This document shows positions 1 to 38,813 of a DNA stretch of 64,000 nt, one piece after another. Positions within the stretch are counted from its first letter, which is position 1. Each line of letters begins with the position of its first letter. Both the position numbers and the translations under genes were made by a program. Origin of the DNA: Ananas comosus (taxonomy: Eukaryota > Streptophyta > Magnoliopsida > Poales > Bromeliaceae); NCBI RefSeq assembly GCF_001540865.1, contig NC_033630.1, forward strand, positions 11,992,003 to 12,056,002. Direction: 5' to 3'. Under the pieces are notes generated by a model, which ran no database searches, was not told where the DNA came from, and saw only the letters and a list, made by a program, of their open reading frames with translations.

Positions 1-1585
1 TAAATCCATCATCTTGTTAATTAATTCCCCGGTATACTAGTACCCGATTCCAGGTGAAAGGGAAGTTTAAGAGGAATGGATTTCATACCCGGTAATTGTC
101 ACTTATTACATTTTAACCTCAGAGAACAAAAAAAAGGGATATAAAAAGACTTTAAAGGAATCATTGGGTTGAATATTTAGCAACGTACGTGTTACGTAAA
201 TTAATTTTTTTTTTGTTAAATTTTTTGTCGGATTGTTTTCTCTAATTTCTAAAATTGGTAGCTTAAAACGTTGGATATCGATATATAGAAATAGATAGGT
301 GTCATTAAAAACTATGATCATTTTCCCTATTTAATATAGATCAATACTACTAAACTTGGGATAACGAAACAGTTATTATTTTAAACAAGATTTATATAAT
401 TAAAGTGATAGAAGCTTAACGCCCGCTTCGGTTAGTTGAAGAGTAATAACGTGGTTTGTAAACTTAAAACTAGGCACTCTTTCTTTAATAATAATTAGTA
501 TTTTTCTTTTTCAACTGACCATCTACTTATCTTAGGAAACAGCCCGAATCTTTTGCTTGAACGGAGTCAAGCATAGGGTTCGAAAACCTTAACAGCCTAA
601 GTTTGAAAAATTCTTTCTAATATATAATTAGGATGTAAGCTAGATATCGTTTTTCATAGGCTGGTTATATATGATACCAAGTCATCCCATAGAACAGCTA
701 GTTAGTCGAATTAATCAAAAACCTAACGAAGCTCTGGACCTTGTCGCACATACTATACTCATTCCAAGTGTTAGGGAACTCTTTATCGTACTTAATTATC
801 TCCACTTTGTTAAAGTTATCCTTTTTATCTCCAATTAATTGTAATTTTAAAACCGTGAATTCAAATTAAGTACGTTAATACATACAACTATAGATTTGAA
901 AATTAAAGGATAGTGTAACCTTTGTCAAAGACACGTCATGTTCTTACGTACGGATACTCTAGAGGCATTATTAATTTTTCTTTAGCGTTCTATAGTCACT
1001 CACCTTCTTCTGTTACCTCTACCCTGTTACGTACGTATCGATAGTGCGTGTTGAAAACAACGCACGGTTTATGATCCCAAACAGGTTTCGACGAGTTAAT
1101 ATAACAAAGATTAAACCGATTTCCTTAGGAGTAAATATAGAAGTGTATAGATACGTATTAACTTAGATCAGGTATTGTCCGAACTCATTAATTCGACTAA
1201 CTCTTCCTCTTTAATAACTAACGCGCGTGAACCAAGAGACCCAATTGGCTAGATTATGTCAGGTAGTATAGAGTATGAAAGCCAGACTAACAGATTTGTT
1301 TTGATGTTGAATAATTTGAATTCGATCATTTCTTACTATAGATTTGTTAAACCCAAGCAACCCGTCACGTACTCGTACTGTACCACCTAGTTCAGGTACC
1401 TTAATTATTAAAGAGGACCCCTTAATTAATTTATTAATCGATTTTTCTACTACGTACCCGGGTCCTATATACATATATATCTCACTCTCCACACCTGTTG
1501 TGTTTCCCGTTCAACCGGTGACACGAGGACACATCTGTTTCTTCCCAGGGTACGTGAGTATTTAATGTGGTGGTGCATGCATGGG

Positions 1586-1590
1586 GTGTG

Positions 1591-1624
<34 letters not shown>
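1586..1624. repeat. TG dinucleotide microsatellite
   Basis: An interrupted run of TG units inside the reversed contig. Its true strand sense is unreliable because the contig is not complemented. Confidence 0.9.
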
Positions 1625-2430
1625 CGTGTACGTACATGTGTATGTATATACATTACCTAGTCGATGACGTTTAATTTGAAGGGGGATTAATTTGTACGAA
1701 CGAATTTGAGAGGACATGGTTTGGACGGGTCGGACCGCGGTGAGCGTAACGCGGTTCACAGGGACGCTAGCAGGTGTCCACGGGTGGCACCTGGTGAGCG
1801 GCCCCCCTGGTGCACATGGTGCACCGGCACAGGTAGGGACAGCCGCCGTCGGCGCTAACCAGGTGCAGCCGGAGCGTAAGTAGAGGGTTCACGGTGTACG
1901 TGAAATTATTAAAGTGATCACAGGAATGGGTGGACCGAAACTGCGTGTTTTCACGGGCAAATACCACGGGCAAAGGTTATAATCAGTATATAATTAGTAA
2001 TCTTTATTCTTAAGAGTGAGTATATACGCATATATATTTATATATACTACGTACTCTCCAAAGAAAGATAGTCGAATTCGAAAACTTATTAAAAGAAATC
2101 AATTCGATAGAACTTTGGAACAAGTAGGTAAAGAGGATTAAAGCAAAGCAGGCGAAACGCTGCAGATCAGTATGACTTGAACACAATTTTACCTATAAGA
2201 TTTTTGTTATCAAAAAGTTTGACATCTTTAAATAAACGATATATTATAAAACGTTGTTACGGTGAAACGATTGGGAGAGAAGCATCAGCCCGTATAGTTC
2301 CTTAATCATTCTCTCACCTCCCTGAAAACAACTCGATTAATTTATTTGACAACTAATGAAAACAACAATAAAAAGAAAAGAAAAAAGAATTAAACTCGAT
2401 ATAAAAAGAAGAGCTACGGTATAACGGAGT

Positions 2431-2503
2431 GACAAACATCGGTTCAAGTAAAAGCTTTACTTACTTCGCCTATCGCACGTTGAAAAAGGAGTTTTTTTTT
2501 ATT
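2431..2503. mobile_element. 5'-truncated SINE copy (visible only after complementing in place)
   Basis: Complementing the displayed bases gives the 3' half of the SINE described at 6010-6147: a GTTC remnant of the B box, the AATGAA segment, GATAGCGTGC, and a terminal CTCAAAAAAAAA tail. The tRNA-like 5' part is missing or too diverged to recognise. It is one of three copies in this contig. Confidence 0.6.
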
Positions 2504-2604
2504 TAATACGTTGTTAAATTAGTAAATAGTGAATGGAAGTAAAATTGGAAACCTATATATATTCTGAGTCAAGAAATGGTGTATCGTGGTTATAAATTAA
2601 ACTA

Positions 2605-2606
<2 letters not shown>

Positions 2607-2664
<58 letters not shown>
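2607..2664. repeat. GA dinucleotide microsatellite
   Basis: About 58 bases of uninterrupted GA as displayed. Because the contig is reversed, the true sequence would show AG or CT here. Confidence 0.95.
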
Positions 2665-2670
<6 letters not shown>

Positions 2671-3300
2671 ACAATAGAAATTTATCAGGAAAACCAAACG
2701 GAAATAGAGTACCTTGTTACTTTTTCTATCCCTTCCCATCATGTACACCCCCTCTCCTCTCTACTTTATCTCACTAGTGACCACTCAATGTCCTCTTACA
2801 ACGATCCCATATAAATTCCATGAGACTCATCTTTCACTGATTGATCCCTCCTACGACGTACCAAGTAACGTACAGTGTAAAGTAGCACCTTTACTTGGGT
2901 TCTCGTTTTTATTATAACAATTATGATTATTATAAAATACTACGTATATGGATATATGTATAACATACTTAATTTCATCGATATGTATATCATTCCTGGT
3001 ACGTAACTCTTCCTACACATATATACATGAGTATAACACATGGGGTGATCGTTATTTCGTAGGTTGTTGTTGAAATTAGTAAAGCGAGAGAAGTCTATAA
3101 CGATGTTGGAAAACGTGAACAACAAACCATGTTGATCGATTCTACGTGTACCAGTTTACACGTGTATGAAATTCTCACGGGAGAGACACACACAGATGCG
3201 CGAACCGGATTCGTTTCTTTTCTTTTCTCTTATATAAATAAATTCAACACGCTGAACAGAGTTTAAAAAGTTCGGTTCATTAGATGGGATGTAACACCCT

Positions 3301-3347
3301 CATCTAATCTAATCTAATCTAATCTAATCTAATAAGATTAGATTAAA
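3301..3347. repeat. Short tandem repeat of a TCTAA pentanucleotide
   Basis: About six TCTAA units, followed by an inverted piece (AAGATTAGATTA). It lies in the reversed contig. Nothing else is recognised around it. Confidence 0.85.
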
Positions 3348-3954
3348 CCTAGGTAATAAACACTTGTAGATTTGGGGAATCAAAAGTACTGCTAATTATT
3401 CATTGTTAATGAACTTGTAATAATTAAATATAGAATATCTTCATTTTAGTTTTTGAAAGAGACAGAAGCAAGCACCTATATTTGAAAGTTTCGGAATTAA
3501 AATAAAACAAAAAAAGGGAAAAAAGTAAAAAGATAGTAAAACGATAAAATGTTAAGTAGTTGCGGAGTTTTTAATTTGAATATATTTGATTCTGGATATT
3601 ATTACCGTTAATTCGTGTTTTAAAATTCGCTTGGAAACGTACACCTAAAACGATCTTAGGGGTACGTAGTTTTCCGAGTGTTTCTGATCACCTATTGTTG
3701 GAAAGTTTAGTAGGTTACTAATCCGTAACCGTGTAATAAGTGGTACGTATATATATCGTACGTTAACCTGGTAAAGCGAACAGAGAGATTTGTTGGTACG
3801 TACTATACATCGTCATTCATCGTTTTATATACCCAGTGAAATACCCAATTTCTCGATTTCAAAGGTGGCGAAGTAGTAAGGTACGTATATATGAACGATT
3901 ATTTTCTTTAAAGAAACTTATAACGAACTAATTAGTTAAGTTTGGCAGTTGGAG

Positions 3955-4197
3955 TATAAATCCGAATCAAATCATAACTCTAGATAGATTGCGATAATCT
4001 ATTTTACCTCAACTCCTTTTTCGTATATCCCTATACGAAGACGGAAGAGACCACCCTGACGTCTTTTATATAGCATTGGCTAAGTAGCACTATTCGCCTT
4101 GCGTTATAATGCATGCCTTAGTTTGTACTATAAAAGGGTAGCAGCAAAGAGTGGCGTGCATTACGTTAGAGGGGCGTTAAGGTTTGCTTTGGAATTA
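3955..4197. mobile_element. Tourist-like MITE, readable only backwards
   Basis: Reading from 4197 down to 3955 without complementing gives TTCGTTTGGAATTGC at the start, a central GATATATTTTCTG, a later AAGCATAT.CCTATATGCTTTT block and a final CTCAATACTAAAC. The same order and spacing of blocks occurs at 35279-35508 in normal orientation. The end is an inverted copy of the start, as in a MITE. This match is the strongest internal proof that the contig is reversed. Confidence 0.85.
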
Positions 4198-4324
4198 AAT
4201 GAGGTTGCAATTGAAGTAGTACCTCAACAACTTTCATAAAAATCAATGTTATAACATATGTGTTATTTTTTATTTGCTTTCTCGTCACGAGTATACAATT
4301 CACATTGAATCGGAGAGGGGACTG

Positions 4325-4477
4325 TCAGGGATCGAATCCACGGTTTCCTGAAGGATCAACCATGGGCTATAAAGTTTAAGCTTGGTATCAATAAAATATA
4401 AAGATCAATTCAAATAAAGAATTTTTTTCTTTACTTGCTTCACCTATTGTCCGATTACCGGAAAGAGAGTTTTTTTA
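4325..4477. mobile_element. SINE copy (visible only after complementing in place)
   Basis: Complemented in place it reads a GGTACCCGATAT block, a B-box-like ATTCGAACC, a middle segment ending ATGAACGAAG, and a tail CTTTCTCTCAAAAAAA. The order matches the copy at 6010-6147, with more divergence and a small A-rich expansion in the middle. Confidence 0.65.
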
Positions 4478-6009
4478 TATCAGTGAGAGGATTAATAATA
4501 AAAAATTATAAACAACTAGGTAAGTTTTATTAAACCGCTATTATTCGTAAATCTATAATTAAACTAGCAGCTGCTGCAGTTGTTAATTTTACCGACAAAG
4601 ATCGATCAGTTGTTTAACATGTAAGTTATCTTTGATTAATTGGACAGCAAGAGTGGTAAATGTATCTTACTTAATCCATATGTTTTTGTTTCTAAGTATT
4701 ATTCTAACTTGAAAAGAACACTATCTTTTGAAGTTTATTGATATAAAAAAAAAACCCCCATGTATATACAATCCATTGCCGTCGAAGAAAATACCAAATA
4801 AACTAACTTTAGATACGCCAAAAAACCAAGTGAACTAGTACACTTTGGAAAAACATATTAAAGAAAAATTTATATCAAAAGACCCCCAAGGGAAATACGA
4901 TTTTTTTTTTGCTTCTTTTGAAGTTTATTAAATCTAATCAGTTTAACATCTTTAATTTCCTCTAGAAGAAAAAAAAAACCAATAATTCCCTGGTTCACGA
5001 GTTTCTAGTGGAAAAAACCAGTTGTATTAAACGAGAGAACTATGGAATGATTGGTTGAAAAGGTTGATAAAGCATAAAGTAAACAACTTATAAAATCAAA
5101 GAAATGTAGCTAGTACTGTTTTACCTCCCCTAGATTAGTAACTTAATCTACTGCTTAGTATGTTAATTGAATGGATAATTAATAATTGTTAGTATGAAAG
5201 AAAATTATAACTGAACTTAAAGAATCCTGGTCGAACGAAAGATAACACCGAGCTTTGAAAAATCTCGTCATGACTTGCCTTTTAAAAGAACGCTAGATAC
5301 TACCTTCACCTTCCACCGACGATCTAAGATCGAACCTCGGTCAATTTTATGTATATATCCCGTCTCTAACAGGGTTAGAACTAATTAAAATCCGGGTTTA
5401 CATAGTGAGGTAGAGGCCATGTATTCGAAAACCGTCTTAGTGTATTTATCGAACATGCACATGCAATAAAAGAAGACGCAGATAGCTGAGACAAATTACA
5501 AATATTTATAAACTCAACTTAAATCATCAATAAAACCCCGAAAACACCATTAATTTAGAGTAAGTGATTCTTTCAAGTCCTTCCTGGATAGATCGATCGG
5601 AATGATAGTGAGTTTAACTTACAAAAAGGATTACAACCAGATTGTACATATATCGGAAATTTAACTACCCGTGAGCTCACTAGATGACCATCCACATTTA
5701 TTTTGTACTTTGGTTTTTTTTTATTCTTCTTCTTTTCTTTTCCGTACGTTGTTTCAAAAAAAAAAAAAAAAACTCTCTTTCCATCGTACGATGACGAAGT
5801 AAATTAACCTTCCACTTAATTCGTTTTTTCCGAAGCTTTTTTTTTTCTTCTTTTTCAACGTTATCTCGAGGGTTTCCAAGGATGTTCTCGCATTTAGATG
5901 ACTGTTAACAAAATTGCAATCAAAAGATAAGATTTTTTAAGAAGATAAGACGAGGTTGGTTTCTCGGGTGGTCCGTCTTTGTTACCAGTTATTTGCTTCG
6001 CTGGCAGAA

Positions 6010-6147
6010 ATCTCGTTCACCATTTCCCGAACCACCAACCATGAGCTCTAGGTTCAAGCTTAGAATCAACTAAGTGTAAAGATTGATTTAAATAAAGATT
6101 TACTTTATTTACTTTGTCCATCGCACGATAGATAGAGAGTTTTTTTA
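6010..6147. mobile_element. tRNA-derived SINE (visible only after complementing in place)
   Basis: Complemented in place, the element begins near GAGCAAGTGGTAAAGGGCTT, which resembles a pol III A box. About 35 bases later comes CAAGTTCGAATC, which resembles a B box (consensus GGTTCGANNCC). It ends GGTAGCGTGCTATC then CTATCTCTCAAAAAAA. A tRNA-like head with an A-tail is the layout of a plant SINE. Two more copies lie in the same contig, and a short 3'-end match sits at 12965-12983. The family name is not known to me. Confidence 0.7.
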
Positions 6148-9100
6148 TTAAGAGAAGAGGGATAAAACGGGGTGAAATGCAACGATCTAAAGATCTCGCG
6201 TGGTCTACTTAACGTCCATGAGTCCTTAGCAAATAAACCGTCTTTCGTGAGGTCGTCGCGAGAACTCTTCGTTGTTGTACGCTTTTCCACCAGTTGGCAG
6301 AGTCCAAGAAAGTACGTCTCGTGCGTGAGATCGTCGTGAGGTCATGGAGAGAAGAGGGCAAGTAGGGGAAAAGTTGGCTAATAGGGAACAATCATGAGAA
6401 ACAAAGTCATGATTGGTTGATTTTTAAAATTGAAAGTCTCTTCAAAACTAGAAGGTGTTAACTCTCTTCGAAGACAGTATATATCTAAGGTGGCAGGACG
6501 TCTTTCAATATTTCACTAAATTAGCAGTTATAAAGACTATTTAAGGTAGAGGTAAACAGAAGTAGAGCCAACAGTCAGTTCCACTACAAACTATTATCGA
6601 TTGTTGAAAACGGTACAGTACGGTACATTAATTTAACCTTTGAAACACCCCCACCCGTTTGTATCTAAAGTAACAAATTAGTGAGATACCTCAGATTATA
6701 GATATATTAATTCGAGGGAATCGAAGATCTTAAACATTTCTATATATATATATGATGAGAACACTTTCAAGAAAACCCTAGTATCTTCTTCGGTGGAGGC
6801 GAAAACTGGACCACCTAGAACATGTATAACTATCTATGCACCTATATATGGATCTGATTTCAAATTAGAAATTTTATACCTCTCTTTCAGGAACAGATTT
6901 TAGTGTTCAGTAACTAGGCTATACTAACCGTGGAAACTTAAGTCTTTGCTCATTTCGAAATGTGACGAGTATTACATGGATTTCATAATAAGTATTCAGT
7001 CGTCATATGTATATACGCTATCTAATAAAAAATTTTTTTCTTTTTATCTCGATCACTCGTTAAATCATGAACATCTGTTGATTTTCCCATTAGAGCCAGT
7101 AGCGATTGCACGTACGGATATAACGTGTTGATTAGGCGTATATTATATAATTGTTTATTCTTGTTGCTGCCAGGTATTTCGATCCATCGTAAAACTCTAT
7201 GTGTATCGTGATGATGTATATGAGAAAATGTAAACTATAAGTTAATCCATAACAATATTTACTTTAAATTTTTTCGATTTAGTTAGTCGTCAACAATAGG
7301 TATATTTCAAACTAGCTATGTAGTTGTTTTAGAATACATCTCATCATGTATCTCACCATGTTAATCATATATATATATATAATGAGATCTCTTTTACAGG
7401 AGTACTGAAAAAGGTTACCTTAATTATTTGTTCAGTTCTCCCAGTCGAAAGAGATAGTTACTCCTCTCCTCCGACTTAGTTCGTCGGTTTAACAAACCAC
7501 TCCTCACATCAGTGCTCGGAACCTTTAATTCATTTTATAATTCCATACAACCGCTGATATATTAAATAAATTAAATATGTACAGGTGGTTGTAAAAAAAA
7601 AAATAAACGTAACTGACGAATTTTGAGGACTAAAAAGTGTGCAATCTGTCCAATACTTTAATAACACGTCCTTACGAACTACTCACCCTTAGAACTAAGC
7701 GCAGCTAGTTCGATCGCAATCTAATAATGGCACGATAAAGGATAGTTTTAATATATTTTGTTAGCGATGGAAGCGCACTGAGTTTGACTACTCTTGGAAA
7801 ACAAGACTATGGTACACTTTAATATATTTTGTAGGTAACAAAAGATTTTCAAATTTGACTATCTCTTACAACAAAAATATAAATATGCGAGATTAATCAA
7901 AGTCTAGAAACTTACCATATTTAAGAAATAAAAAACAACGAAAACAATGGAGAGGACATGCAGCCGTATGTACCATGCTACTTAGTGAACTAGAGATAGT
8001 ATGCGCAATCGAAGATTTCATAGCATTAGTTAAGATAGACTACTCTCTATCTCTCTCTCTTTCTCTTTTGATAGGAAAATCAGGGCCGGTGTACTTTATA
8101 CTTCGTTTTCATTTCTCTAGACTATACCTGATCGATAATCCAAGTTTGATTAATCTCCGGATTCTAAACTTTACCTGTTTAAAGTTTTCTGTACGTACAG
8201 TGTAAACACAATCAGTGTATATACATCGAACTTTGACTAGCTTACCCTGGAGAGGATTGTGTTTAGGATTTGTGTTATTACATTTGCTCAGCACGATCCA
8301 AGCCTTTCGTAAGGTTGAGTTAAGAGAGAGACACACAAACACACAACGTGGTGTTTCTATATGGGGGGTGAACCACTCTTAATTGTTTTTCCCTCAATCC
8401 ATCCCTCCCCTAATTATATAAGTGTGCGTTTGCGTTTGTTCATTTAAGCTTAAGCTACGTAAGGGACAACGCTAAGATTCAATAGTCCTTTCTCCCATCT
8501 AAAAAAAAACAGGGGTAAGACTTTGAAACTCTACAAGTATACGACTCCACCTTTGTGAGTAAACAGAAGATAGATGTTCAGGTTAGTTGTGTATCCCTTA
8601 AAGTGTAACCATGGTTTAATTTCTCTATCTCTTTCTCTCTCCTTTATCGTCCAGTAAAAATCACTGTGTAACAAAATTCTCAAACAGTTGCTTTGAAAAG
8701 TAAAGCTACCACAAGATATGACAATTGAAAATTAAAAGAAAATATTATTATGAGCGACATTGATAGCAAAAAGAAAATATTATGAGATACCCCAACAAAA
8801 GCAAAGATTAAAAGTGACTTTTTTTCTCCTCTATATATATATCTTCTATATATAAGTACTTAATTGTAACAGACTATATCTCTATCTAAGTTGATTAATT
8901 GTAACAAAGAAAAAGTATTTTATCTAGATTTTCTCCTTTTTAATTTTAACCTTATATAATTCATGACATCTATAGATAATATAGAGAGGTTTTTTTATGA
9001 ATTAATAAACTGTTATATTGTATCTCTAGACCATTGATTTATAGTGTTGAACTTTATGTTTCCTTAAACTTAGGTACTAAATGATCTCGATTCTGTGTAA

Positions 9101-10217
9101 ACATGGAGGCTACTAGACAAGAGAGTATGATCAACCATTGACAATCAGCGTTATTATTACAAACCGTTGTTTATTCTAGCTAGCAACATTTAGAACGTTA
9201 TTTAGAGCACTAGTATTTACCGATTTGTTATATATAGTTAGTAAACATAATAATGTTTCCGTGTTCAATAATGTTATTTAATATATAACGTTGTTAAATT
9301 AAGAGCTGCGTTAGTTTAACCGCATTTTTGTTTCAAATAATGTAGACTTAATTCTCTGTTTTCATTAATTTGTACGTTTTTCTTTTGTCCATCGCTGGTA
9401 TCAATCAATTATTAAATGACTCCATATATATATATATATATAATCAATACACTGAGCCGGTTTACTTGACACCGAGTACGTCCAGGTTTTAAAACCCTCG
9501 GTTATTTAATTGAATCCTGAGAAGGGTTATACCGGGATGGTAAGGAATGTTCCCGGCAACGTTAATAACACAAACAAACCTCAAAATCTGCAAAATAGAG
9601 GGTTTTACGAGATGACATCGAGATAGTGACACTAACACTGCTCGTCAACCAAGGTTAGAGTATTTTGTGTAACGAAAAGGGAGGGGGGGTTGGACCAGGG
9701 TAGGGTTAATTCCTACGTTTGTCCCAACTAGACCCCCGCCTTCTTTTCCAGGGGGGTAGAGGGCAGGGCGAATGGATCGTCCCGTCCTGCTTGATCGAGC
9801 ATAAGCAGCTAGGTAAATGTCCGCCAGCCCCGCTCTTCCATATCCAGCTAGGAGCTAGACGGAGGGCGAGGTTAAGAAGCCGTCTATATAGCCCTGCCTA
9901 AGTCTTGCATGCTTAATAGTAAAAAAGAGTGACTCAAGGTTCTTAGGCTTAGGTAATTAAACGTAGAGATTAGGGTTAGTCAAAATCATGTTAATTAAAG
10001 TAATTGCGGCGAAAATAAAGTACTCATGATCGAGAAGTACTACGTCGTGAATTAATAAAATGGCGTTCAAACTACTTAATTATTAATGACATCGAAAAAT
10101 TTAACGTCACGTACGTTGAGTCCGCATTACGCTTGAATGAATTAATGGTATATTTAATTTAACTTCGAATTAAACAAAAAAATAAATGTAATATAACTAA
10201 GTTTAAGAGAAGAGAAA

Positions 10218-10218
<1 letters not shown>

Positions 10219-10284
<66 letters not shown>

Positions 10285-10560
10285 TATGACTCGTGGAATA
10301 ATGAGGTTGAACCATAACCAGCACACCCAACCTAAGAGAGAGAGAGGGAGGGGGAGAGTTAAGAGAGAGAGAGTTGAGAGAGATACTAGAAAGAGAGAGA
10401 GTGTGTTGAGAGAAATAGAGAGAGATAATTAAGGGAGAGAGAGGAGAGAGAGAGAGAGAGAGAATCAAGAAAGAGAAAGAGAGTTGTGAGAGGTAGAGAG
10501 AGAAATAGAGAGAGATAATTAAGGGAGAGAGAGGAGAGAGAGAGAGAGAGAGAGAGAGAA
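10219..10560. repeat. Compound TA / CA / GA microsatellite at contig end
   Basis: TA repeats (10219-10241) run into CA repeats (10241-10282). A GA-rich tract follows (10335-10560) and contains a duplicated block GAGAGATAATTAAGGGAGAG. The contig breaks at the n at 10562, as expected for an unassembled simple repeat. Confidence 0.9.
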
Positions 10561-10562
10561 TN

Positions 10563-10827: not shown

Positions 10828-13800
10828 GTTCGTAAGAAGAAGCTCGCGAGCTCCACAAGCAAAGGAGATGAATACGAGACCGAATTGTTGGAGCAATTCG
10901 TCGATACCGACGCGACAAAAGAGTTCTTCACGAGGCTCGACCTTCAACTCAACAAGGTGAACCAATTCTACAAAGCAAAGGAGAAGGAATTCTTAGAGAG
11001 AGGGGAGTCACTAAAGAAGCAAATGGACATACTCCTCGAGCTTGAATCCATGATTAAATCGCAAAATGTAAAGGGTCCAGTGATCAATAATGAATCAAAT
11101 GAGGCTCCTTCTATGTGTTCCTCAATCACAAATGGTAAGAGAATTATTATTATTATTATCATTATTATTGTTATCACTATTGGCTATTGATATAAGTGTT
11201 ACATGGAGTAATGTATGATTAAGTAATTATATGTAAAATTTTTGTTAATAAGAAATTTGAAATGCTTAATAGTGCAATTCCATACATGAAATCAATAAAT
11301 TCATAATGCTAGATCATGATGTACTTAAAATTGTACAAAATGCATAGAAAATGTTGTTGCAATTTATCACCCTATATATATAATAAAAAAAAATATGCCC
11401 ACATTACTATTTTATATGTTTCTAATTGCGGAAAATGGTATGAGTACATGACCTTCTAATACCCTTCTTGATTTTTTTTTCCTTTTTTTTTGGCTTATAA
11501 GAAGAGGAATCCACCAAGATTACTATAGAATTCGAAAGAACCGAAGACAACTTCTCCGACTCACAAAGGCTCGATGATTCGTCAAATTTCATGAAAGTGA
11601 GAACAGAAGAAGCAAAGCTAAGAAGTCTCTCAAATAGAGTGATAAATTGCGGTGCGAAAAATTTAACAATCAATATACCATTCACTACTCCTTCGAGGAC
11701 TATATCCGCGATAAGTGACTTGATGTGGAAGGACATATTTAGCTCGTCGAAGAAATGCGACGCCAACGGCGTAAATAAGCTTAGGATTAACAAGACTAAG
11801 CTTCACCATGCAGAGAAAATGATCAAAGGAGGCTTCATTGAGTTGTACAAAGGGTTGGGGTACCTTCAAAACTATCGGTACAACTCCATATATAATCGAA
11901 CTTTAAAAAAGAACATAAAATATTTTGAAAAAAAAATTTGATGTAAATGAAATTTGAAGTTTGTTTTTACATATCCCGCAAAATCATTTACTCATGCATG
12001 AACTTTTGTATATATATTTATACTCCTCGAAAGTGCAATTTCTTTAAAATAACCATGATATATATTTTAATTAACTTGGGGGAAAAAATCATTATAAAAT
12101 ATACCATGATATGTATATGAAAATTGTGATTTTTCAGTGAAAATATGTAAATAGATCTCAAATTAAGGATAGCACATACCATCATACAAAAAATAAATAA
12201 ATAAAATAAAATAAAATAAAATAATCTTGTGATAAATTAATAGATATTTATTACATGTAGGTTTATGTTGCAGGAACCTGAACATGCTAGCTTTTGTAAA
12301 GATCTTAAAGAAATTTGACAAGGTAGGATATCACATTTTCCTCATAGGTTGTTTTTAATTTAGTGTATATATATTTTTTGATCATAATAGTTTAGTAAAG
12401 TTTGATTAATTTATTGTATGCATCTCAGGTGACAGGGAAACAAATCCTTCCTGATTATCTCAAAGTAGTAGAGAGCTCCTATTTCAATAGCTCAGAAAAG
12501 GCACCTCTCTCTCTCTCTCTCTCTCTAGATTCATGTAGATGTTGTTGAGCTTAATTGTGTATTTGCTTGCTTTGCATGATTATTAGTTTAAGCCTAAATG
12601 AAGTCCAAATGTATAGTTATGCATGTTGGCTCAAAGGAGCTAGCATCCTGTCTTGTGGCAGGAGGTCAGATTGAGCTGAGTCGTGTTCGAAATGATGGGA
12701 GGCTATGTTGGGCTAAATCGTGTTTGAAGTGGCGTGAGGTTGGTTGGGTCGAATCACAATCAAGATCCGACCGTGGGCGCTTGTTTGTATGCTTTAATTA
12801 AGTGTATTGATTACGTATTTTTAATAGCTCAAGCTTTTGAAATTAATGGTTAGCACTAACAATCCGACAATGCAATGTACCAATTGCAGCCCGGAAGGTC
12901 TAGCGCGACTCTCTGAGCTTGTGTGTCTACCTATCTTGCATGATTATAGTTTCGGATTCTTTTTTTTTTTTTTGAGAGATAGGTATTGGACCTAATAAAT
13001 TATTCTTGCTAGCGGGTCGGGTCGTTATATATCCAGCATATTGATCGTGGCCTAGAGGGTCTAGGGTTTTGACTCTCTCTCTCTATTCTTTTCATGTGTG
13101 CATGTATAAATACACGCACAACATATACAATAATTAAAATTCACATCACACTTATTTAAACATGTTCATAAGTATGTATGATTATTTCCAAACATCGATT
13201 TGACATTTTTAGAACATCATTTTAAGCACCTAACTAAAAATGCAACAAACAACTAATCATAATCACTCGAATTTACCTCGCGCTACCGACAATGCAAATC
13301 ACAGGCGATTAAGCTAATGGACGAGGTCGAAGAGATCTTCGTCAAGCATTTCGCGAAGGGCGACGAACGAAAGGCGATGAAGTACCTCAAGCCCCAACAT
13401 CGCGACGAATCGCACTCAAAAACATTCTTCATTGGTAATTTTCCAAACTTTGAACTCATCATACATTTAGTTTTTGCTCATGCTACATATTTTTGCTCTC
13501 ATTTTAGGGTTATTCACTGGATGCTTCATCGCGTTATTCATCGGTTATTGCACAATGTATCGATGTTCCGATAACCCTATCTACATGGAAATTGATTATC
13601 ATGTACTTAGGTGCTTAAACAAAGTTTAATCGATTTTAATTTTCTCGATCGCCTTTTGTGAAATTTTGATCGTAATTTGGGGGACCAAAATGTAACCTAA
13701 TCTTGTTATGTGAATACTACTAAATGAAGCATGTTTAGCCTCTTGTTTCTACACTTGTTTCTCTATGGATGCAACATACTCATGTGGCGAAAGGCGCGAA

Positions 13801-13853
13801 TCATTTATAGCTTTATATTTGAGTTTAGCCCTAGCAAGGAGTTGGATCATGAA
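10828..13853 (+). CDS. PHO1: PHO1-like phosphate exporter, partial: SPX domain and first membrane segments, EXS domain absent
   Basis: PHO1 proteins export phosphate, typically for xylem loading; the SPX domain senses inositol pyrophosphates. Exons by frame and splice sites: 10828-11134, 11502-11877, 12274-12322, 12429-12500, 13305-13434, 13508-13610, 13730-13853 (387 codons, open throughout). Exon 2 starts the readable SPX part ([15 protein letters not shown], then a coiled-coil-like [11 protein letters not shown]). Exons 3-5 give the SPX core [12 protein letters not shown] and the Lys-rich [14 protein letters not shown]. The sixth ends SHSKTFFIG and the seventh adds [14 protein letters not shown], the first helix. 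The last gives [11 protein letters not shown] and [14 protein letters not shown]. Exon 1 is lost in the gap. No exon for the catalytic EXS region follows here or after the second copy at 17.7 kb, where the family has several hundred more residues. It is a truncated gene, or one whose rest lies outside this assembly. Intron 12501-13304 uses a GC donor. Confidence 0.85.
12965..13055 (-). mobile_element. Fragments of SINE 3' end and TRIM long terminal repeat in a PHO1 intron
   Basis: On the minus strand CTATCTCTCAAAAAAAAAA matches the SINE 3' end seen in the reversed contig. Beside it, on the plus strand, lies TTGCTAGCGGGTCGGGTCGT, which matches the end of the TRIM long terminal repeat at 55910-56395. 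Both pieces are very short. Confidence 0.4.
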
Positions 13854-14577
13854 GTAAACTAATTATTTACTTCAATAAATTTATAGTTGTGAGAATTACA
13901 TGAAGTATATTAACTAAACCTGTAAAGGTGAGCCGCGCATTCAAATTTTGAACTCAAAATGCCGTGCACAGACTCAAATCAAACAAATTGAAAGGTCGGA
14001 TAGCTCAGGTATGTTCTATATGTTTTTACCTTTTTCAAACCATAACTGTGGACTTAATTTTGAATTTAATGCATTTATTTTATGAATAATTGGGGGGTTT
14101 GAATTTTGTGTTGAGACTAATTCACTCCAATTTTGGTTGCATGGACTCAAAAGTAATTCATTTGTCTTGGCGGGTCTTGAGGTAATTCGACGAGGGCATT
14201 GGAATTTCTATAGGTAAGTAATGATTTGCGTATTTTGAAAAAATAAAAGGATCTAGATGCAAAATTCACCATAAAATAATGAGCAAAATATGTGGGTAAA
14301 TTACATCATTGGTCACTCAACTTTTTGATTAAATTTTATTTAGGTCATTGGAACTTCAATTTCTTTCAATTAAGGCACTAAACTTTAACTTGTATTTTAA
14401 TTCAGTCCCTATTCGAAGGATTAATTTATTATTCGATGATTACATATTACTAACCCTTTTATTTGCAAAATTATGAAACAAAATAATAAAATGAACTAAT
14501 TGAAATAAAAATAAAAACTACTAATATGTAACTTTATTTGAATTGAATTATGCTTAAGAGATAATAATAGTTTGTTT
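13611..14577. repeat. Contig-end segment duplicated at 17548-18547
   Basis: From the base after the PHO1-like exon ending at 13610, this segment is repeated almost base for base at 17548-18547, including the last exon. I see about 2-3 percent substitutions and a roughly 20-base indel (near 13998 versus 17940). Its distal part is itself a dispersed repeat, related to 26690-26830. The divergence suits two haplotypes or a recent duplication better than one identical sequence. Confidence 0.85.

Positions 14578-16636: not shown

Positions 16637-16669
<33 letters not shown>
16637..16669 (-). repeat. GA/CT microsatellite upstream of the HUB-like gene
   Basis: It is CT on the coding strand, about 330 bases before the ATG, within the likely leader or core promoter. 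The homology with 20656-21345 begins at its right edge. Confidence 0.85.
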
Positions 16670-16674
<5 letters not shown>

Positions 16675-17546
16675 TGGGTGGGTACAAATGGAAGGTGAGG
16701 TAAAAGGACATGGGAACAAACAAATCCTTAATTTTCATGCATGAAAAATATTAAGATTGGTAGGGGATTAATTAATTATCATTATTATTATTATTATTAT
16801 TGTTGTTGTTTTTATTACTAAAATAGTGCAAATGTGGGGGCTCAATACAATTATTACAAATATTTATGTTGTTTTCTATGAGCTGTTTTAAGAGTATTGT
16901 AGTAGACAATTCGTGCGACGCATTTAATTGCGTGTACGAGCCAATTCAAGGCCCTCAGCATCGAAAAATTCTAGAATGCAACGGGTATATTAGTGACGTG
17001 GCGTAATAAACCAATCAAATTAATTTTTTTAAGAATATATGTCCCATCATGATTGTAAAAGAGTATTTTTATTGTACTTTTGTTTGAAAAGAAGGAATGT
17101 GATTGGCTTGTTATTGATGACGTGGTGCAAGTGTGACAGTGTAGAATTCCTCCTCAGCATCAGGGATTCCTTGCAGGGCATTTCTGACGACAGTCGCACA
17201 TCGAATGAAAAAAATAAAAAAAAATTGAGAATATATGTATCAAAAATTTTAATAATAATATCTAAAATATGAGAGTTATCGGATAAAGAGTAATCTCATA
17301 TCGTTTGATAATTCTAGTCTTATGTGTGTGATTCGATTTGAATCTGACGAGAGCATCAGGATCTAATAATAGAAAGAGTTTGTGACACCCTAACAGAAAC
17401 CCTAGCAATAATAACTCGATACGAGTATTTTAGGCCCAAACGAGTTATTATTGCTAACGGATCGGATCTTACAATACCCATAGCAGCAGTCACACTCGAA
17501 TGGGATCAAGTTTAGCAGTTCGAAGACGACGTTAGAGCTCACGTCG
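16655..17546. repeat. Segment shared with 20650-21345
   Basis: From the end of the GA tract to the n at 17547, this sequence is repeated at 20650-21345 with few differences. It differs mainly by one insertion (16963-17151). It includes a small LTR-like block (GTTATTATTGCTAACGGATC) near 17450 and 21250. On the left the two copies diverge abruptly at the GA repeat. Confidence 0.85.
16963..17151. mobile_element. 189-bp MITE, present here and absent from the paralogous copy
   Basis: It is flanked by the direct repeat CCTCAGCATC (16953-16962 and 17152-17161). The second copy has this 10-mer once, at about 20950, as an empty site. The ends are imperfect inverted repeats with AATTCTA near each tip, and an inner pair around GACGTGG and CCAATCA. 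A 9-10 bp target duplication suggests a Mutator-like MITE. Confidence 0.75.
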
Positions 17547-17547
17547 N

Positions 17548-18547
17548 GTGCTTAAACAAAGTTTAATCGATTTTAATTTTCTCGATCGCCTTTTGTGAAA
17601 TTTTGATCGTAATTTGGGGGACCAAAATGTAACCTAATCTTGTTATGTGAATACTACTAAATGAAGCATGTTTAGCCTCTTGTTTCTACACTTGTTTCTC
17701 TATGGATGCAACATACTCATGTGGCGAAAGGCGCGAATCATTTACAGCTTTATATTTGAGTTTAACCCTAGCAAGGAGTTGGATCATAAAGCAAACTAAT
17801 TATTTACTTCAATAAATTTATAGTTGTGAGAATTACATGAAATATATTAACTAAACCTGTAAAGATGAGCCACGCATTCAAATTTTGAACTCAAAATACC
17901 ATGAACAGACTCAAATAAAACAAATTGAGAGGTCAGATAGTAAAATCAAAATAGTCCATAGTTCAGGTACGTTATGTATGTTTTTGTCTTTTTCAAACCA
18001 TAACTGTGGACTTAATTTTGAATTTAATGCATTTATTTTATGAATAATTGGGGGGTTTGAATTTTGTGTTGGAACTAATCCACTCCAATTTTGGTTGCAT
18101 GGACTCAAAAGTAATTTCATTTTTCTTGGCGGGTCTCGAGGTAATTCGACGAGGGCATTGGAATTTCTATAGGTAAGTAATGATTTGCGTATTTTGAAAA
18201 AATTAATTAAAAGGATCTAGATGCAAAATTCACCATAAAATAATGAGCCAATATGTGGGTAAATTACATCATTGGTCACTCAACTTTTTGATTAAATTTT
18301 TATTTAGGTCATTGGAACTTCAATTTCTTTCAATTAAGGCACTAAACTTTAACTTGTATTTTAATTCAGTCCCTATTCGAAGCATTAATTTATTATTCCA
18401 TGATTACATATATATTACTAACCCTTTTATTTGAAAAATTATGAAACAAAATAATAAAATCATGAACTAATTGAAATAAAAATAAAAACTACTAATATGT
18501 AACTTTATTTGAATTGAATTATGCTTAGGAGATAATAATAGTTTGTT
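17548..18547. repeat. Second copy of the 13611-14577 segment
   Basis: It begins exactly at the intron base equivalent to 13611, so this contig starts inside the PHO1-like gene. It continues past the point where the first copy stops, into 18.5-19.8 kb, where no further PHO1 exon is seen. Confidence 0.85.
17667..17790 (+). pseudogene. Second copy of the last PHO1-like exon
   Basis: It is the equivalent of 13730-13853, with the same length and frame ([20 protein letters not shown]). It differs at a few bases, giving [10 protein letters not shown] instead of [10 protein letters not shown]. The donor after it is GC where the first copy has GT. It may be an allele, an overlapping contig copy, or a decaying duplicate. 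No other exon of the gene accompanies it. Confidence 0.65.
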
Positions 18548-18559
18548 TAAATATGATTA

Positions 18560-20649: not shown

Positions 20650-21345
20650 ACAGAGAGAGAGAGAGGTGGGTGGGTGGGTACAAATGGAAGGTGAGGTAAA
20701 AGGACATGGGAGCAAACAAATCCTTAATTTTCATGCATGAAAAATATTAAGATTGGTAGGGGATAATTAATTAATATTATTATTATTATTATTGTTGTTG
20801 TTGTTTTTATTACTAAAATAGTGCAAATGTGGGGGGCTCAATACAATTATTACAAATATTTATGTTGTTTTCTATGAGCTGTTTTAAGAGTATTGTAGTA
20901 GACAATTCGTGCGACGCATTCAATTGCGTGTACGAGCCAATTCAAGGCCCTCAGCATCAGGGATTCATTGCAGGGCATTTCTGACAACAGTCGCGCATCG
21001 AATGAAAAAAAAAAAAGAAGAAGAATAATATGTATCAAAAATTTTAATAATAATATCTAAAATATGAGAGTTATCGGATAAAGAGTAATCTCGTATCGTT
21101 TGGTAATTCTAGTCTTATGTGTGTGATTCGATTTAAATCTGACGAGAGCATCAGGATCTAATAATAGAAAGAGTTTGTAACACCCTAACAGAAACCCTAG
21201 CAATAATAACTGGATACGAGTATTTTAGGCCCGAACGAATTATTACTGCTAACGGATCGGATCTTACAATACCCATAGCAGCAGTCACACTCGAATGGGA
21301 TCAAGTTTAGCAGTTCGAAGACGACGTTAGAGCTCACGTCGTGTG
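20650..21345. repeat. Second copy of the 16655-17546 segment, upstream of the AGP-like gene
   Basis: It carries the same GGTGGGTGGGTGGGTACAAA start, ATT trinucleotide run, and the LTR-like block near 21250 as the copy upstream of HUB. It lacks the 189-bp MITE. The sequence after 21345 continues where the other copy is cut by the contig break. Confidence 0.85.
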
Positions 21346-22170: not shown

Positions 22171-24210
22171 GTCCGCTATGGTTTGTAAGTACAAGGTCTG
22201 AATGTGCGCTTGTAAATTTTTTACCGTTAGATCTCTGCCTTTTTGAATATTTTACCCACGTGAGATTATACTATTCAACCAACCACCTACCAAACCTCGG
22301 AGCCCCCATCATCCTAATCGTACATATCCTTTAACAAGGGCCGAAAACTTATCAAGTACGGCTGAATGATTGGTAGTTTTAAAACATAGGATCTCATTCT
22401 ATATGAGTCCGGCATTGTCGCTTTCATTAAAAGTACGCAATATTGGTTGCTTGATGAAAATTTTTTACGCGTTAAGATTCCTCTGCCTCTTGATCACTTT
22501 ACTCGTTAGATATACCTATTCAACAATCTACCCAACATCCTCAATATCCCTAGAGGCCTCGCCACATCATCCTAACCTACATTACTTTAATCCAAAACGG
22601 GGCGAAAAACTTTACAAGTACCAATACTTGGTAACTTTTAAAAGCATAGGAGCCTCAATTCTGATAATGATCCGGATATATGGTGCTTGTAAAGTACCAA
22701 GCTCATTGGTGTTGTAAATTTTTACCAAAATCATAGGACTCAATTTTGATCTATAATATTTCGTTTATATATTAATATATATATATATATATAACTATAT
22801 GAGCTAAAATACGGCCCAAGACTCAAAGTCTCAGTAGGTTTAGTTTGATCTAGAGAACCCCGTCTCAACATCAACGATCCCACACACGTTAAAACGAAAT
22901 ACTAGGTGTAATTTAAAGTTTCTAGAAATAAACAGATATCAATAATAATATTCAAGACGTAGTTTACTCTATGAGCACAAAGCTCATTAAACAAGATCAC
23001 AAATGTCAATTTTTTTAATAGAAGCTATTATGACGAGTTTGGAGTTTGAAACGTGTAGCAAGAATCTAAATTATTCTCAAATTTTTGATAAAAATACTTT
23101 AACCCTATAAGATTACGGTTAAACATTCTTGATCTTGATTGAAAAGATTCTATGCTCAATTTTAACAAGATTATATACATTTCCACCGATATATATTTAT
23201 TTACTAAGTAAACGATATCTAAAAAAAACTAAAAATTTTATTCCTAAGAAATTCATATACCGCCTAGATCAATCTTTCACACACTCCCCCATAAAATCGT
23301 TGATAATTGAACGCCCTATCACAGTATCGAAAAGGCAAACACTATAGTACCGAAGCTCCGATACTATAGATAGTATAGTACCTAATTCTATATATATATA
23401 ATATATATATATGTATATATAAGAGAGAGAGAAGAGGAGAAGAATGAGAAGAAGAGAGTTCAGGCTACAGGTGCTTGTAAAAACACCAAAGTACTTGGTC
23501 TTATAATTTTTTACCGTTAGATCTACTCGCTCGATCATTTTCAACCATTAGATTATACTATTCAACCAACCACCCACTCACCTAATGGGCCCACATCATC
23601 CTAATCGCGATATCTCTTAATCCAATGGCTAAAAATCTACCAAGCACTATAACTTGGTACTTTTAAAAGTATAGGAGCTTAATTCTATATAATATATATA
23701 GATACTAGTATAATATCCGGCTATGGGCTCTGTAAAAGCACCCAGCAGTTGTGTGCTTGTATTTTTACTCGTTAAAAAAGATCAAACCTCTGATCATTTT
23801 TCACACCGTTAGATTAATCTATCCTCACCACCCACTGCCACTCACCCTGAAAGCCTACATCATTCTTAACACGCACATCCCTTAAATTTCAAGAGCCGAA
23901 AACTTACAGAGTACCTAATACTTAGTACTTTAAAGCATGGGAGCTCAATTCTATAATTTTATAATAATATATAGAATTGAGCTCCCATGCTTTTAAAAGT
24001 ACCAAGTTATTAGTGCTTATAGATTTTTAGCGATTGGATTAAGAAATATGCGGTTAGGATGATGTGGACCCTCTAGGGTTGAGTGGGTGGTTGGTTGAAT
24101 AGTATAATCTAATGGTTGAAAATGATCCGAGGAGTAAATCTAACGGTAAAAAACTTACAAGCACCAAGTGCTTGGTGCTCTTACAAGCACCATAGCTGAA
24201 CACTATAGTC
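22168..24210. mobile_element. Cluster of about five copies of a foldback/MITE family
   Basis: Repeated landmarks are GTGCTTGTAA, TTTTTTACCGTTAGATC, ACTATTCAACCAACCACC, CATCATCCTAA and TTGGTACTTTTAAAAG. I see copies near 22180-22400, 22400-22720, 23470-23680 and 23710-23950 in one orientation. A fifth at 23965-24200 is in the opposite orientation, so the last two form a long inverted pair meeting at the AT-rich stretch near 23955. Related copies lie at 43590-43780 and 45385-45640. Confidence 0.7.

Positions 24211-34371: not shown

Positions 34372-38813
<4,442 letters not shown>

Follow-up and report, generated by a model that had tools for sequence, protein, structure and literature searches.

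A block of a pineapple genome sequence that reads as natural DNA only when reversed without complementing, and further stretches of the assembly with the same apparent defect

How should the first 10,561 bases of this pineapple sequence be read? The window, the whole 64,000-base stretch that we analysed (G000:C10:11992003-12056002), opens with a piece whose base-neighbour bias is, by an earlier note made from the letters alone, inverted relative to what follows; that note proposed a reversal without complementation. Its hand counts (CG 15 and GC 2 in 3661-3900; CG 1 and GC 7 in 11221-11460) were identical on recount. The CG/GC ratio is 1.60 in 1-10561 versus 0.87 in the rest of the window, and the proposed abundance of GTAC and ACGT is equally evident, with CATG/GTAC at 0.63 versus 1.59 and TGCA/ACGT at 0.34 versus 2.30. 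We scored polarity with strand-symmetric Markov models, for which the remaining N-bounded pieces served as training set. At each k from 2 to 5 the models favoured the reversed reading of 1-10561; when this piece was cut into 21 blocks of 500 bases, the k=3 model favoured the reversed reading in 20 and the displayed reading in one. All six of the other N-bounded pieces favoured the displayed reading in total, while single blocks inside forward pieces can go the opposite way (10 of 42 in 17548-39026, for example). The polarity score of the block is -88 as displayed (+88 reversed), against a mean of +69 (sd 12.5) for 15 forward windows of equal length, which overlap one another, so that the resulting z of -12.6 is rough. 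Both ratios and models thus bore out the claimed inversion, the neighbour bias of the block being the mirror of its surroundings' bias.

A bias unlike that of the surroundings would also suit DNA of foreign origin, or a region written correctly but unusual in composition, such as contamination with a CpG-rich bias of its own. Against this, the block when reversed has the bias of the genome (+88), contains repeats of this very genome (identity up to 94%) and forms a continuation of the left flank. Contamination was rejected on these three grounds, and we give it next to no credence.

The repeat evidence comes from searches of the window, its flank and the assembly itself, the displayed strand being searched in all three (in the assembly with 6800-8500 and 3957-4199). 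As displayed, 1-10561 gave three matches to the rest of the window on both strands, all rich in AG repeats or A runs. Plainly reversed, it gave a single match of 244 columns, from 3957-4199 to 35272-35513 (72% identity, E 3e-29). When the 20 kb upstream flank (L009 and L010) was added, for 84 kb in total, a mirror self-comparison returned 26 rows, that is 13 pairs, and all 13 link the block to sequence outside it. In a direct control with the same settings on both strands, the reversed block had 13 matches and the displayed block one. This lone displayed match, 33 bases at L009:6064-6096 on the left edge of the block, is a forward-orientation copy of the left flank and is probably flank sequence. 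The 13 mirror matches come from five segments of the block: L009:6088-6376 (seven, partly AT repeat), window 6000-6149 (two), 4323-4476 (two), 3957-4199 (one) and L009:7211-7401 (one). The SINE and MITE structure that the earlier note saw on backward reading is therefore present as repeat matches that appear after plain reversal; the names "MITE-like" and "SINE-like" come from that note and from inspection. The repeats are as follows.

3957-4199, no strand: MITE-like repeat of ~240 bases, readable backwards only; reversed, 72% identical to 35272-35513 and up to 94% in the best of 40 scored genome places.
6000-6149, no strand: SINE-like repeat, readable backwards only; reversed, 87% identical to L010:9340-9488 and L009:3649-3789.
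4323-4476, no strand: second, more diverged SINE-like repeat, readable backwards only; reversed, 72-73% identical to L010:9340-9488 and L009:3649-3789.
35272-35513, + strand: MITE-like repeat copy in normal orientation; mirror match to 3957-4199.
23967-24207, + strand: copy, in normal orientation, of a repeat that the upstream part of the block contains reversed at L009:6122-6362; 83% mirror match.

Homology of the block to its own genome was thus found after plain reversal only, the exceptions being four short displayed matches of 6800-8500 described below. Its neighbour polarity, the repeat matches gained only by plain reversal and a mirror overlap with the flank all uphold the view that a processing error reversed the block without complementing it. 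Strands stay antiparallel in both recombination and replication, and biology offers no route to a parallel reversal. The block is an artefact of assembly processing, not biology, and, judged from its letters, 1-10561 is almost certainly natural sequence solely when read reversed without complementing. The warning that any gene, motif or promoter called here on either displayed strand is invalid was justified.

The reversal of the "first contig" stands; its proposed extent, 1-10561, does not. The block is ~14.5 kb long, begins ~3.9 kb upstream of the window near L009:6097, where it is joined to forward sequence without an N, and is one of several such stretches.

1-10561, no strand: string-reversed block, the part inside the window, defined by polarity and mirror-only matches; continues upstream to about G000:C10:11988098 (L009:6097).
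10562, no strand: single N at the right end of the block; forward sequence follows.
10354-10499, no strand: AG-rich stretch whose backward reading aligns with L009:5922-6078, the left flank in forward orientation (score 221 reversed).

A two-state segmentation, with L010 and the window's forward sequence as training set, placed the reversed state from C10:11988066 to 195 bases past the N at 10562. The left edge lies within an AG/AT microsatellite, without an N, and the 33-base displayed match ending at L009:6096 suggests its position at about L009:6097. Alignment of L009:5922-6078 with 10354-10499 scored 221 with the block reversed, 121 as displayed and 48 as reverse complement. The displayed control scores as well because the 10354-10499 stretch is AG-rich; the non-repetitive parts of the overlap align in the reversed version only. 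Since the N-side end, read backwards, continues the left flank, the alignment shows that the reversal of the piece ending at 10561 happened in situ. We also looked for a mirror overlap of the block with the piece that follows it (10563 on) and found none.

With respect to its left flank the block is indeed the wrong way round, as would be a segment reverse-complemented relative to its neighbours by an ordinary inversion, real or misassembled. A reverse complement, however, would keep the strand-symmetric neighbour bias, which is inverted here, and would be picked up by a standard search of both strands, in which the displayed block has one match versus 13 for the reversed one; the flank overlap likewise scores far lower as reverse complement than reversed (48 versus 221). 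With neither a reverse-complement match nor a normal neighbour bias found, ordinary inversion was rejected, and its probability is in our judgement negligible. A contig-orientation error resembles the string reversal in leaving a piece at its own place the wrong way round, but such a piece is reverse-complemented and stays readable, whereas neither displayed strand of this block, reversed only as a string, is real.

We examined the whole assembly (381,958,007 bases in 3,128 sequences) for other reversed stretches. The MITE-like repeat of 3957-4199 as displayed, that is in mirror orientation, had 20 first-look candidates genome-wide, all of which were scored, giving 22 matches including itself; plainly reversed, in normal orientation, it had 1,877 first-look candidates, of which 40 were scored. 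These first-look counts are loose, and their mirror/normal ratio of ~1% is the sole basis for an estimate of "a few Mb". Excluding the repeat itself, we determined flank polarity at every non-self mirror site but C23:2125971, which makes 18 of 19. With flanks of 400 bases on each side 15 of these 18 sites were negative, and with flanks of 1500 bases 12 were; all 12 normal sites (the best 12 of the 40 scored) were positive with flanks of 1500 bases. Six of the 18 mirror sites were not negative at 1500 bases: L012, L015, L018, L019, L020 and L022. In L012 and L015 an N lies less than 600 bases from the mirror repeat; L015, L020 and L022 have a mirror overlap after an N, the latter two in short pieces. 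The flank polarity of L018 is mixed, and segmentation assigns most of this locus to the reversed state. L019 (C2995:13300-23299) carries a mirror copy of the MITE-like repeat, 73% identical, in normal polarity, and neither segmentation nor flank polarity detected a reversed stretch there.

A SINE-like repeat, searched as its plain reversal, gave 176 mirror candidates, 40 of which were scored, at up to 93% identity; five of its 42 matches fall in four of the 18 mirror loci (L012, L014, L024 and L028). Window 6800-8500 as displayed had four short non-self matches in the genome (67-117 bases, 72-80%), which fall together on one part of the query, 7770-7886. The one on C3053 lies 3 kb from a mirror SINE-like copy, and the other three are without such a known neighbour. 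These matches may mark further reversed stretches, of which C3053 alone is supported. One reversed stretch on C15 runs for at least ~31 kb without an N, its right end not having been reached. By eye, L043:1-2500 (C15:3668880-3671379) holds a forward LINE-like reverse transcriptase and passes into the ~31 kb reversed stretch with no N between. Judged by polarity and repeats, these data show the same reversal defect in other stretches of this assembly.

A fault that arose, or grew worse, in the copy that we examined and not in the deposited assembly might be suspected from the copy's 3,128 sequences, against the 3,133 scaffolds given in the text of PMC6139296. The reversed stretches, on the other hand, vary in length, lack an N at one side and often lie by single Ns, and so look like assembly pieces, not the product of a fault in copying whole records; we regard a copying fault as improbable.

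In other reversed stretches, plain reversal also makes genes of plant-type protein families legible; among the frames scanned from the block of the window itself none was seen. Across 13 stretches treated as reversed, open reading frames of at least 110 aa numbered 77 in the reversed and 32 in the displayed reading. Ten of the 77, chosen by length and look and not at random, were scanned, and seven passed Pfam gathering cut-offs, as Myb, Arf, protein kinase, HD-ZIP N terminus, SRF-TF/MADS, AP2 and F-box; the other three were one Myb piece below the cut-off and two without a family. The ten longest of the 32 displayed frames had no Pfam family at E 0.01. The reversed Myb frame aligns with the plant factor WER (E 2.9e-34) and the reversed MADS frame with MEF2-type factors (about E 1e-10). 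The window's own block has 20 reversed frames of at least 75 aa; the 10 that were scanned gave no protein family above the cut-off, with two matches far below it. One upstream frame and 6 of the 11 displayed frames of the block were likewise without a Pfam family above the cut-off, with one match far below. This upstream frame (the complement of L009:7596-7964 read left to right) looks plant-like by eye but had no Pfam match, and a database search returned one word-sharing candidate and none scored, in a collection that may contain no plants.

Almost certainly, the merging, gap closing or scaffolding of the assembly flipped some pieces by reversing the string without complementing it, among them the ~14.5 kb piece that ends at 10561; presumably, pieces needing the minus orientation were reversed instead of reverse-complemented. 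The window contains six single-base gaps in 64 kb (10562, 14578, 17547, 39027, 43780 and 52453), and at 3 of 27 single Ns (L015, L020 and L022) a mirror match to the preceding piece begins at the first base after the N. The in-place reversal, the edges at or near single Ns in several cases and these mirror matches together suggest that strings were reversed, and not complemented, when pieces were joined, filled in or merged. Because the C15 stretch extends ~31 kb without an N, whole contigs, and not gap fillers alone, may be affected. At or near the single Ns 14578 and 17547 lie direct duplications (308 to 1002 aligned bases, 94-98% identical).

13611-14577 with 17548-18548: direct duplication.
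17152-17550 with 20949-21345: direct duplication.
16656-16962 with 20652-20958: direct duplication.

The duplications are either contig overlaps that went unmerged or alternative haplotypes that the scaffold retains, and they fit single Ns that would be placeholders for overlapping joins. Unmerged overlaps at single-N joins share the assembly and the type of join with the reversed block, and several in the window flank direct duplications; they are, however, direct repeats of correct polarity, whereas the block is a mirror image. For pineapple F153, the text of PMC6139296 gives a size of 381.9 Mb, 3,133 scaffolds and 8,986 contigs, with a contig N50 of 126.5 kb, a value that would be overstated if single Ns were not counted as gaps.

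Reports of string-reversed stretches were sought in the open-licence literature, and none was found; in the main text of PMC8774480, words beginning with "revers" occur 0 times. The same string operation produces the reversed, non-complemented benchmark decoys described in PMC11099658; those are a deliberate control, whereas the block here stands unmarked inside a genome sequence.

Such an artefact is invisible to length, G+C content and gap counts, while genes, motifs and alignments in the affected stretches are lost, so that a public reference comes to contain hidden genes. We think it probable, with real room for doubt, that ~1% (a few Mb) of the pineapple reference, presumably F153, was string-reversed by one systematic fault, that Myb, MADS, AP2/ERF, F-box and kinase genes are consequently missing from the annotation, and that part of the gene deficit of F153 relative to newer assemblies stems from this fault. 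The authors of MD2 v2 state over 3,000 more genes than in F153 in the text of PMC8774480, and we conjecture that reversed stretches contribute to this particular shortfall. If ~1% of a crop reference is affected, a figure taken from one repeat ratio, missing-gene counts, synteny and promoter studies there are unsafe. A k-mer polarity scan would detect such faults in any assembly.

Just past the block, in normal polarity, exons of an apparent PHO1-type (SPX domain) gene can be seen by eye at 10830-11880 on the + strand.
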